From the NCBI GenBank assembly GCA_004524535.1, contig SDNY01000032.1:1-32463 (forward strand): a stretch of 32,463 nt of DNA. Direction: 5' to 3'. This DNA comes from Promethearchaeota archaeon. Its GTDB lineage: Archaea > Asgardarchaeota > Lokiarchaeia > Sigyniarchaeales > SOKP01. Every line of letters starts with the position of its first letter. The first letter of the stretch is position 1. The translations under genes were made by a program, and so were the position numbers. The notes beneath the pieces are model-generated. The model ran no database searches. It saw nothing but the letters and a program-made list of their open reading frames with translations, and had not been told where the DNA came from. Below are positions 9,860-31,378 of this stretch, in pieces.

Positions 9860-12241
9860 TTAGCCTTCTCGGCACAATCTTTTCAGTAAGGTAGGATCAA
9901 TTATCTCTTTTGGTTCCCAATTTTTACTTTTCAAATATTCCTGTATTTCAGACTTCAAATTGATTGGAATGTCAGCTTCAACGCGAATGTATTTTTCTAA
10001 ATCGGTTGGAAGGTCAACGCCTTTATATTTTCGTTCTAAGTCAATCCAATGAGATAATTTTATCATACGTCCTTTGGAATTATCAGCTGGCCTCAAACAC
10101 ATTTTAGCAACTAAACAAATTGCCTGTTCGATAGATTCGGCGGTTGTTAATAGGTGTTCAGGACAAGGACTAACTAAATGGTCGCCAGTGCCATCTCGTG
10201 CATTCCATACTTTCCATGTATCCTCATCATCAGTTCTACCTATATACATACGTCTGTATTCAGCTGAATGGGGTCCACATACTGCTGGAATACCCATTCC
10301 ATTACAACTACTTGCTATACTTGCTGCTTTTTGCGACATTGCGCCCCAGGCAACTCCACAAGCTCCAACTCGATTTAAGATATAATCCGCTATTTCTTCA
10401 TAATTACCTCTTAAAGGACGTCGAGCAAATATATTTGCAACTTTAATTGCCGCACCATTTATATGTGGATTTGAGACACATGAGCCTACATTAACTAACC
10501 CTCCTCGGTCGAAATCACCAGGATATCTATCATATAATGTCTTACCTTCTTCGTCTTTTACAAGACCTATATCCATAGCACCACAGCCAGACACTACAAC
10601 AATATAATTCCTATTGCAGAATTCTTCAGCCATTGTATATAATTCTTGGATTTCTTTTCCATAATTGGCACAACCGATAATGGCTACAATTCCAGGAATT
10701 TCTCCTAAGACGATCGGAGCCCCTACATTTCGAATTTCAGTATCCTGAATGGGACCACGCCCTACTCTTAGGTTGAATTTTTCGTTTCTAATCTTTTCAC
10801 GCCCTGCATACATAATTAGAGTGAGAGGTGAAACATCTTTCATGCATTCGGCTTCACATCTACCACAATCTAAGCATGCATCAAATGTGTCTGATAATAT
10901 GGAAAAATCTCCGTCCTTTGCAGCATTTACACCTGCAACTAGTGGAAGATCATTAGGACAATTTCTCTGGCAATTTCCGCAGCCATTACATCTCATTGCC
11001 ATATCTATACATCCTTGCTCATCTGGAACTGCGCTTTTACTCTTTCTAATTGGCCTTACCTTTATTGCCGTTTCTACTGCAACTTGCCCCGCTTTTACGG
11101 GATCTAAAATTAATACACCTTTAGCTTTTCCACTAACTAAATCGTCTACAATTTCATCAACCGGATCATCAGTTCTATCTGGTAATCCATTCATATTTTT
11201 CTCATTTGAAGCGATAAATGGTGCATTTACTAGTTGCGCTTGTTCAAAGCTTCTCAAGTTAACGCATTGCTCATCGACCATCACTACATCTGCTAACCCA
11301 GAACGAATGAAATGCATTTGACGGGCGAGAGAACCAACAACTTTAGCTCCACTGTAATATCTTGTTAAATCCAAAGCAGTACAACAGATTGCTCCTACAT
11401 CAACTTTGCTTTCATATCCCTTCTCCCGCATATAATCAACTAATTCGATTCCAGGTGCTACATTATGGCCAATCATTAAAATTGTAGCCTTATTTTCCGT
11501 ATCTAAAGTACCCATTCCCAATTCAACAATAGGTACATCAGGATCTCCTACAGGAAAACCATATGCAGCAATTTGAACGGCATCAGCTATTTCCATTCCA
11601 ACAGCATCACATAATCCCGCTAAGAAACTTTTTGATTCATAATCTAAATAACTTGATTCTTGACCAGTATGACCCGCCGCAAGAAGATGAGTAATATTGA
11701 ATTGAACCCATTTCATTGCTTCTTCCAAATCTTCTAACGTTTCTGGTTTCATCCCTACTATCAATCGTGTACATGGCATTTCTACAGCAATATTGTTTCC
11801 AAAATTTATTGGGACATTTCCGTATTTTTCTTTGAGCCAGTGAAGCAAGTGATCTCCGTGAGCGCTGTGGCACGAGGCCCCGATACAGCACGCAATCTCT
11901 ACTATCTTTGCACATGCCGTTTCTATATTAATACCACAAGCCCCTGTTCTTCCCTTTGAGAGGTTGCATTTACCGAAGGTACAAAGGCAACACATATCAC
12001 AAATTTACCCAATTATTCCAACAGAATAATTGTTTGGCATGTAATATGGCTTGTACCTCTCCATTAATTTGAAAAACCAATTTCGCAATGTTGGAATATG
12101 GGGCATTGGAGTTGGACCCATTGGCTCCCATTCAGTCTCGTCTCCGAAGCTTACTTTTCCTGTCGTTAATTCGAAGCCCTTAATACTTCCTAGTGGGCCA
12201 GAGTAAGAATCTATTTTTATTTTTGCGCCTTTTTTACTCAT
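9860..12241 (-). CDS. cdhA: CO dehydrogenase/acetyl-CoA synthase (ACDS) alpha subunit, gene interrupted by a 30-nt insert
   Basis: CdhA is the Ni-Fe-S CO dehydrogenase subunit of the archaeal acetyl-CoA decarbonylase/synthase complex in the Wood-Ljungdahl pathway. The chain shows the N-terminal cluster motif CCLCTFGKC, HSAHGDHLLH, two ferredoxin-like sets (CNGCGNCQRNC and CLDCGRCEAEC), and the C-cluster region around IGCANYGKEI and SGCGAMDIG. As read directly, an in-frame TAA at 12005-12007 splits it into 78 codons and a 711-codon remainder in the same frame. Dropping 12004-12033 joins 208 nt to 2144 nt and gives 783 residues, the usual CdhA length. The junction then reads YYMP-ICDMCC, matching the P-x-C-D-x-C-C pattern I recall in homologs. 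No other cdh gene lies in the window. The start MSKKGAKIKI has no clear Shine-Dalgarno sequence. Confidence 0.93.
12004..12033 (-). other. Candidate 30-nt BHB mini-intron inside cdhA
   Basis: On the minus strand the insert carries a perfect hairpin: CAATTATTC (12032-12024), loop TGTTG, GAATAATTG (12018-12010). Next to it, exon bases TGCC (12039-12036) pair with insert bases GGTA (12009-12006), giving four pairs including one G-U. An AAA bulge (12035-12033) separates TGCC from the hairpin. AATT (12005-12002) separates GGTA from the outer helix. The outer exon-exon helix is CATATTACA (12048-12040) with TGTGATATG (12001-11993), nine pairs including one G-U. Cutting AA^A and AA^TT, after the second nucleotide of each bulge, removes exactly 30 nt and restores the frame. 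This is the archaeal BHB layout, with the second bulge at 4 nt (or 3 nt plus a one-base bulge). Ends are ambiguous by 2 nt because AA/AAA flanks both sides. Confidence 0.8.
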
Positions 12242-23119: not shown

Positions 23120-23821
23120 ATGGCATTAGATGCAGCTGGAATGATCTTATTAGTATCATTTTTTATAATATGGGGAGTCTTCCTGGCATGGGATTTCTTT
23201 CGTAGAATTTCATGAATCTCTCATGAAGTACGCAAAGGAGAAAAATATGGCTTCCTAGCTTACATATTGGCTGTAATTCCAGTTAATATGTTATGGGGCT
23301 ACGGTTTTAATATTTTAGGGGTTTATATTGTCCTTTTTGTATTATGGATAATTTGTCTTTTTCGTGATTTAATATTAGTATATGGCAAAACAAAAGAATA
23401 TGATGATATTTTGCTATTTTTAGGAATTGCAATTCTAGTTCAAGTAATTTTAACAGGAATATTGCCATATATGAATGAGCAAATGCAAAGTAATTGTGTG
23501 GCAGCCTGGGTCTTTTGGTTTCCTGATGTTTATAATCCAAATACAAATGCTATAAAAAGTTGGGTTAATGCTAACTATCTATTAGGATTTAGAGTAGCAG
23601 CAACAGGCATGGTAATATTAGCTATTTTACCAATGATCTTAGATTTATACTACACGGAAGAACATGTTAATCTTTTAGCAATAATTTTTATCGATTGTAT
23701 TTTTGTGGCCCCTTTTCTCTGGCTGGCATACGTTTGGATGGGAGGCATCGGTTGGCCATTGACTTTCTTGTTTGCGGTGCTTTTATTTATAGTTTTATTA
23801 CTATTAACAAGGGAGAGATAA
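23120..23821 (+). CDS. Multi-pass membrane protein interrupted by an in-frame TGA
   Basis: ATG at 23120 (GTGA-type SD upstream) opens MALDAAGMILLVSFFIIWGV, a first membrane helix, and runs 31 codons to TGA at 23213-23215. The same frame then continues without a stop to 23821 through about five more hydrophobic segments, for 233 codons in all. I do not recognise the family. The TGA lies inside a hairpin: TTTCATGA (23208-23215), loop ATCTC, TCATGAAG (23221-23228). Losing 27 nt (23207-23233) would give FFRR-KGEKYGFLAY; losing 30 nt (23206-23235) would give FFRR-GEKYG. A CGA-to-TGA nonsense change is the plain alternative. Translation from TTG at 23267 alone would lack the first helix. Confidence 0.6.
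23201..23235 (+). other. Candidate BHB-like element around the in-frame TGA
   Basis: CGTA (23201-23204) pairs perfectly with TACG (23229-23232). GAA (23205-23207) and CAA (23233-23235) are 3-nt bulges on opposite strands. The inner helix is 8 bp (one G-U) with a 5-nt loop. That is a canonical 3-4-3 BHB core. However, cutting at the standard GA^A and CA^A points removes 28 nt and breaks the frame, so a one-base-shifted cut (27 nt) or a shifted pairing (30 nt, one mismatch) is needed to keep the protein. The outer helix is weak (T-A, T-G, T-G). Confidence 0.45.
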
Positions 23822-30557: not shown

Positions 30558-30775
30558 TTTTTTTCTATTATTTTATGTATATAATATTAAAATTATTCAC
30601 TTAGTAATTTAAATAATTTCATATTAAATAAAGAGATTGCAGATTCATTATTTTAAATCAGACATTGATATTTAGACCAAAAAGGCTATTATATTGAAAA
30701 ATTCACATATTTGAATAAATAAAAGTTCTTAAGTTATTCAAAGGGTTAATAAATTATCCAAGATAATTCTACTTG

Positions 30776-31378
30776 ATGGAAAAAAAGGAAAACATTCAGA
30801 TTTCGCTTGATGATATAAACGAAGATGATATACCAGCCAAGATTCCAGCTAAATTTATTAATTCGAGAATTGTTATTTTTAATCCTCTTTATGCCTCTTA
30901 CTTATATGTGAAGGAAAAGTTTTTTGGCTCTCCCCTTGGAATAAGTAAGCCCCGTTTAGAATATTTCCATAAACCTTCAGAGTTGTCTGTTATTGAGGCT
31001 TATTACCTATTAGAAAAAGGTAAGATTACTATTTTTGATGTTAAAAGAGAGAAGGATCTTAATGCTAAGGAATTTTTTGAAATTGCCAAACAAATACACC
31101 ATAAATTTGAGGAAAAATACGTAATTTATAAAGATTTAAGAGAAAAAGGATATATTCCTCGACCAGGGTTGAAATTTGGAGCAGATTTTGTAGTATATAA
31201 GAAAGGCCCCGGATTAGAACACTCTCCCTTCATTGTACACGTATTACCTCATGATTCTAAAATTAGTGCAATTGATATGGTCAGAGCTGGCAGATTAGCT
31301 ACATCAGTTAGAAAAAAATTTGTTATCGCAAATCCCCAAACTATAAACTACTATTTCTTTACGTGGTTTAAGCCGTAA
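30776..31378 (+). CDS. endA: tRNA-splicing endonuclease EndA
   Basis: This 200-residue protein is the archaeal tRNA intron endonuclease, which recognises the bulge-helix-bulge motif and cuts within both bulges, leaving 2',3'-cyclic phosphate and 5'-OH ends. The catalytic domain holds YKDLREKGYIPRPGLKFGAD, the catalytic Tyr at 141 (DFVVY), His at 149 (EHSPF) and Lys at 180 (ATSVRKKF). The length fits the short, homotetramer-type enzyme, which in other archaea prefers strict 3-4-3 motifs. A TTG three bases upstream of the ATG is in frame, but ATG is the better start. Its presence makes cutting of the cdhA BHB-like element possible in the same cell. Confidence 0.95.
   Translation: MEKKENIQISLDDINEDDIPAKIPAKFINSRIVIFNPLYASYLYVKEKFFGSPLGISKPRLEYFHKPSELSVIEAYYLLEKGKITIFDVKREKDLNAKEFFEIAKQIHHKFEEKYVIYKDLREKGYIPRPGLKFGADFVVYKKGPGLEHSPFIVHVLPHDSKISAIDMVRAGRLATSVRKKFVIANPQTINYYFFTWFKP

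Follow-up and report, generated by a model that had tools for sequence, protein, structure and literature searches.

Why is a gene for a membrane protein interrupted by a stop codon that lies inside a hairpin? The question was raised by a locus in the window, i.e., the whole stretch of 32,463 nucleotides analyzed here, which comes from a Lokiarchaeota MAG (labelled G000, 3.66 Mb). Inspection of the sequence and its open reading frames confirmed that positions 23120-23821 (+) form a single reading frame broken by a TGA at 23213-23215, as a preliminary description of this DNA had noted. The product is a multi-helix membrane protein, and no confident match to it was obtained in Pfam.

The read-through membrane protein was used as a query against 58 genomes (G000 and its relatives), and the gene was present in 47 of them. 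The block ISuISHEVRK, where u is the TGA, was carried by G000, G003, and G004, all belonging to one genus. The same 10 codons were exactly absent from the 26 other genomes with an alignment across the site, where FFRR, FKR, or FRK passed directly into GEKYG or NEKYG. An insert length of 30 nt was also obtained by splice-aware protein-to-DNA alignment. The insert sequence was identical at the G003 and G004 loci, and in G004 the insert and its flanks (23189-23268) were identical to those in G000, while the whole gene differed at 27 of 702 positions. Judged from these alignments, the hairpin with its insert is more than chance, because it recurs in two further genomes, is unchanged in G004 despite the differences elsewhere in the gene, and is missing from homologs with codon precision. 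The gene was divided as follows.

23120..23205 (+), exon 1 of the membrane-protein gene, from ATG to CGT AG; homologs align to residues 1-29
23206..23235 (+), predicted 30-nt BHB intron, AATTTCATGAATCTCTCATGAAGTACGCAA; an exact 10-codon gap in 26 relatives
23213..23215 (+), in-frame TGA within the intron
23207..23229 (+), intron hairpin with a 9-bp stem (23207-23215/23221-23229) and a 5-nt loop (23216-23220); MFE structure
23200..23236 (+), BHB motif with bulges AGA (23204-23206) and AAA (23234-23236); geometry as in the sister introns
23200-23203/23230-23233 (+), central helix of the BHB motif, TCGT/ACGC, three pairs and one U.C mismatch
23236..23821 (+), exon 2 of the membrane-protein gene

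Since the whole block is missing in relatives, a nonsense mutation or a recoded codon alone is ruled out, and the earlier suggestion of a chance palindrome hit by a nonsense mutation was abandoned: 10 codons, not one, are absent from the 26 relatives. Homologs were checked for a version of the ISxISHEVRK stretch that has a sense codon and is intact elsewhere, and none was found. Recoding of the stop as selenocysteine or another residue, to which a TGA within a hairpin could point, is next to impossible, given that the homologs lack the block altogether and have no Cys there, and that the sister inserts described below contain TAA and TAG and in some cases shift the frame.

Excision of 23206..23235 joins CGT AG|A GGA into RRGEK (junction FFRR-GEKYG), as the homologs require. 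Of the removals of 27 or 30 nt that were named in the preliminary description as restoring the frame, that of 30 nt agrees with the homologs in this way, and the standard 28-nt cut also considered there is excluded by them. The stem of 8-9 bp with a 5-nt loop proved to be real, with 9 bp in the fold (MFE -14.0 kcal/mol compared with -8.8 for shuffled sequences; z -2.2). The helix proposed earlier, CGTA (23201-23204) with TACG (23229-23232) and bulges GAA and CAA, can pair but is one position off; the neighboring register is preferred because of the MFE fold and the comparison with the sister introns, and with its 9-bp stem it removes 30 nt in frame. The earlier idea of a second mini-intron is thus supported by the homologs, but the shifted cleavage that came with it is not needed after this correction. 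The MFE fold holds the 9-bp stem and a CGU/ACG helix, and its 3' bulge has 1 nt, not 3. With only three central pairs, the U.C mismatch, and this 1-nt bulge, the membrane-gene intron is regarded as a relaxed BHB motif, and its 7-pair BHB score by itself is unremarkable, being reached by 17-21% of control sites. At the level of single nucleotides, the homologs leave the cut some leeway, because neighboring removals yield the same or a near-identical protein, and the intron is uninformative on covariation, because it is invariant in its three genomes.

A second predicted intron is found in the same window, in the gene for the CO dehydrogenase alpha subunit.

12241-9860 (-), cdhA (CO dehydrogenase alpha), whole gene, interrupted by an in-frame TAA
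12034..12241 (-), cdhA exon 1
12004..12033 (-), predicted 30-nt BHB intron with the in-frame TAA; absent in 18 relatives
9860..12003 (-), cdhA exon 2; Pfam PF03063

Exactly 10 extra codons separate MP from ICDMCC in comparison with the 18 relatives, among which the sister genomes G003 and G004 are counted. The BHB motif is canonical here (TGCC [AAA] hairpin GGTA [AAT]), and the fold is more stable than expected (z -3.7). Cutting each bulge behind its second nucleotide would take out exactly 30 nt and leave ATG CCA ATT TGT GAT, i.e., the MPICD of close homologs. Presence and absence of the cdhA insert in sister species could be expected of a DNA-level or self-splicing element, such as a group I or II intron or ciliate-like DNA excision. 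Such an element is extremely improbable, as the BHB geometry is the mark recognized by EndA and 30 nt is, to our knowledge, too short for any ribozyme intron.

The layout shared by the inserts (a hairpin with a 9-bp stem and a 5-nt loop, with a 4-nt helix strand and a 3-nt bulge, in this order, on either side) was searched for in fetched stretches of G000, and further interrupted genes came up. Across the inserts the stem has about 9 bp, and the lengths are mostly 30 or 32 nt. Removal of the insert in argG (argininosuccinate synthase) restores LMYSGGLDTSCM, where the split codon G|AC would become the Asp of SGGLDTS on splicing (GLDTS junction). The restored junctions are KATWEDV-IPLAV in a CdhD homolog, GHFGH-IELARPV in rpoA1 (RNA polymerase A'), and GAVGV-DMGRNIFQ in the class I aldolase (FBP aldolase gene), whose insert has 32 nt and shifts the frame. 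The gene first named mtrH was reassigned to the CdhD homolog on the basis of Pfam. In argG and the aldolase alike, removal of the insert rejoins the split codons precisely. The inserts contain TGA, TAA, or TAG, and those of 32 nt change the frame. Two 3-nt bulges on opposite strands with a 4-bp helix are found in cdhA, argG, cdhD, rpoA1, and the aldolase, and several central helices of the mRNA inserts hold G.U pairs or a mismatch.

A strict BHB scan of 1.08 Mb of fetched G000 sequence gave 11 matches, six of them solid, and decoy bulge sizes gave 9, 2, 4, and 6 matches; in 0.26 Mb of the relatives, seven matches were obtained compared with none for every decoy. With loose thresholds, chance dominates a generic BHB scan in AT-rich DNA. 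The six solid cases extrapolate roughly to about 20 introns per genome. Matches in genes that we take from our own reading of the sequences to be HisRS (L258, 18375) and thiolase (L200, 5302) were rejected, since the "intron" was normal coding sequence in another frame. On the minus strand of L218 (offset 19502), a BHB-like 32-nt element lies in a possible oxidase gene, with one frame open throughout; it could be a seventh G000 intron. A covariance model built from one intron (R1) matched only R1 itself in the genome and is therefore considered too sequence-specific, and no structural alignment of unrelated introns was obtained with MAFFT. What looked like argG exon 1 in a second copy in G000 proved to be only the end of a contig within the intron hairpin: contigs C118 (end, L291) and C8 (end, L293) overlap, and one of them ends there. 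Introns may be under-represented in MAGs, because short-read assembly may break at such palindromes.

For the relatives, the spliced argG, rpoA1, and aldolase proteins were searched in 58 genomes and CdhD in 39, and inserts were then defined by splice-aware protein-to-DNA alignment, which is blind to RNA structure. Interrupting inserts were present in at least 12 relatives (G003, G004, G006, G007, G010, G012, G015, G018, G020, G023, G030, and G033): in argG of G003, G004, G007, G010, G020, and G030, in rpoA1 of G003, G012, G018, and G033, in the aldolase of G006, G007, G010, G015, and G033 (up to three sites per gene), and in cdhD of G018 and G023. Three inserts occur in the aldolase of G007, which has one more in a gene that we read as aldehyde:ferredoxin oxidoreductase-like (AOR-like). 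Sites hit at the same codon across genera are residue 23-24 of argG, residues 34 and 224 of the aldolase, and residue 69 of rpoA1. The 29 inserts, which include the G000 and G004 copies of the membrane-gene intron, measured 30 nt (17), 32 nt (7), and 33, 36, 50, 61, and 65 nt (one each); that of 61 nt is probably not an intron, as it sits at an alignment end. At the homology-defined junctions, a mean of 6.4 of the 7 tested BHB pairs could form, and all seven were present in 20 of the 29. The mean for 15 ordinary indels was 4.2 of 7, with all seven pairs in none. By sequence comparison, inserts of one build, orthologous or independent, occur across the relatives.

Within the order, 5 of 79 genomes had an interrupted rpoA1 region, all of them in one family. 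No BHB insert was found in the few testable genomes outside this Lokiarchaeota family; absence in one genome can mean missing sequence, because several MAGs are incomplete. The longer rpoA1 inserts of G012 (L242) and G018 (L243), 50 and 65 nt, share a second small hairpin near the 3' end (CTTCATTTCGAAG / CCTCATTTCGAGG), which may be another kind of RNA element within the intron. Convincing BHB motifs were lacking in the aldolase of G012, which has stops, and in that of G023 at residue 12. In G012 (L245), the conserved GGEYEKQS motif has TAA in place of GAA at two codons, with neither insert nor BHB, which would fit an assembly error, a strain variant, or a broken gene.

Such stops outside any BHB motif, the in-frame stops in general, the metagenomic origin of the assemblies, and the G000 contig that ends within the argG intron could all be taken to mean that the genes are simply broken, by insertions or nonsense mutations in pseudogenes or by assembly errors. 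This explanation is highly improbable: the same inserts are common to independent MAGs, the coding frames are conserved on either side, the genes affected include those of the essential RNA polymerase and argininosuccinate synthase, and the structure is maintained by compensatory changes. In six argG introns, 100% of the pairs were kept with five two-sided compensated cells (0 of 500 shuffles), and pairing fell to 12-58% when the partner was slid as a control. In five aldolase introns, 96.9% of the pairs were kept with four two-sided changes (2 of 500 shuffles), one of them in the central helix (GCGT/ACGC to GTGT/ACAC). The slid control and this central-helix change weigh most, because related sequences can beat shuffles by descent alone. 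As far as the alignments tell, the structure of the orthologous introns in argG and in the aldolase is kept by compensatory changes between genera.

Short gaps with hairpins and stops, mostly with lengths in multiples of three, are also what hairpin-aided programmed ribosomal bypassing would produce, as in phage T4 gene 60. Bypassing is nevertheless very unlikely here. The take-off and landing codons do not match (AGA and AAA in the membrane gene; CCA and TAA in cdhA), the split codons of argG and the aldolase are exactly restored, and bypassing needs no central helix or 3-nt bulges, the marks of EndA that covary in these inserts.

Enzymes for splicing are encoded in G000, which has two EndA-family proteins (PF01974) and one RtcB. 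One of the former lies in the window.

30773..31378 (+), EndA catalytic (alpha) subunit, tRNA-splicing endonuclease; PF01974, E 7.6e-31

The best PDB match of this protein was 3p1z_B, a solved archaeal tRNA-splicing endonuclease subunit (the catalytic one of Aeropyrum pernix EndA), and the catalytic residues Tyr, His, and Lys line up between the two. The paralog, on another contig, is without the catalytic His, which suggests that EndA of G000 is probably an alpha-beta heterotetramer with the paralog as the likely structural beta subunit; the protein at 30773-31378 is the likely cutting enzyme. Heterotetramers of this kind have a broad specificity toward relaxed BHB motifs (PMC6379350). ARAGORN, run on about 30% of G000 (stretches L068-L107 and L199-L238; 1.08 Mb), found only a single tRNA without an intron, and allowing introns added three; introns, or disruption of some other kind, may affect many of the tRNA genes in G000.

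The inserts are, with high confidence, BHB pre-mRNA introns that would be cut by EndA and joined by RtcB. The basis for this reading is the exact insertion, the restored proteins including split codons, the conserved geometry, the covariation, and the presence of the enzyme genes. In the proposed mechanism, the intron would fold back on itself in the transcript, placing a short central helix with a bulge on either side at the borders between exons and intron. EndA, probably the alpha-beta heterotetramer of the 30773-31378 subunit and its paralog, would cut after the second nucleotide of each bulge, and RtcB would join the exons, whereby the frame is restored and the stop removed; we infer that cutting and joining take place, by these enzymes and at these nucleotides. 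The membrane-gene intron would be a member of a set of introns, each of about 30 nt, that is spread over core genes of this Lokiarchaeota family. As tRNA-type hairpin inserts interrupt core genes family-wide, these archaea, which are relatives of eukaryotes, probably use their tRNA-splicing enzymes to splice mRNA. The wider picture, held with less confidence but still favored, is of an Asgard family with uniform, about 30-nt, EndA-spliced mRNA introns, tens per genome, in essential genes, with ongoing gain and loss and without a spliceosome.

If true, such a multi-gene set in Asgard archaea would show that introns across core protein genes can be kept up by the machinery of tRNA splicing, and their recent gains and losses would be open to study. 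Automatic annotation would truncate or discard RNA polymerase, argininosuccinate synthase, and CODH subunits in these genomes, and the debate on the origin of eukaryotic mRNA splicing would have to weigh a non-spliceosomal route in the sister group.

No prior report of Asgard mRNA introns was found in the literature covered, which excluded preprints and most subscription journals. As far as found, confirmed archaeal mRNA introns in print are essentially those of one gene, cbf5 of Crenarchaeota (PMC2738675). The cbf5 introns of Sulfolobales and Desulfurococcales are short, have a BHB motif, and show lineage-specific gains and losses; a hetero-oligomeric EndA is associated with them, and cleavage falls between bulge residues two and three (PMC2738675). 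In G000 and its relatives, cbf5 had no stop within its TruB_N match. The Asgard inserts resemble the cbf5 introns as short BHB elements in protein genes, and the same cut rule fits, with splicing here predicted from sequence. They differ in belonging to another phylum, in interrupting many genes (rpoA1, argG, cdhA, cdhD, aldolase, membrane protein, and AOR-like), up to three times per gene, and in their mostly uniform 30 or 32 nt. Putative 12-bp introns in protein genes of an archaeal virus, with splicing not shown, are similar as very short inserts in archaeal protein genes; compared with them, as far as the citation in PMC2738675 describes them, the Asgard inserts have a full BHB motif and lie in cellular core genes. 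The tRNA and rRNA BHB introns processed by (alpha-beta)2 EndA (PMC6379350) share the order of 3-nt bulge, 4-bp helix, and 3-nt bulge, and the alpha and likely beta subunits are present in G000; unlike in those introns, the Asgard substrate would be mRNA, and G.U pairs or a mismatch occur in several of the central helices.
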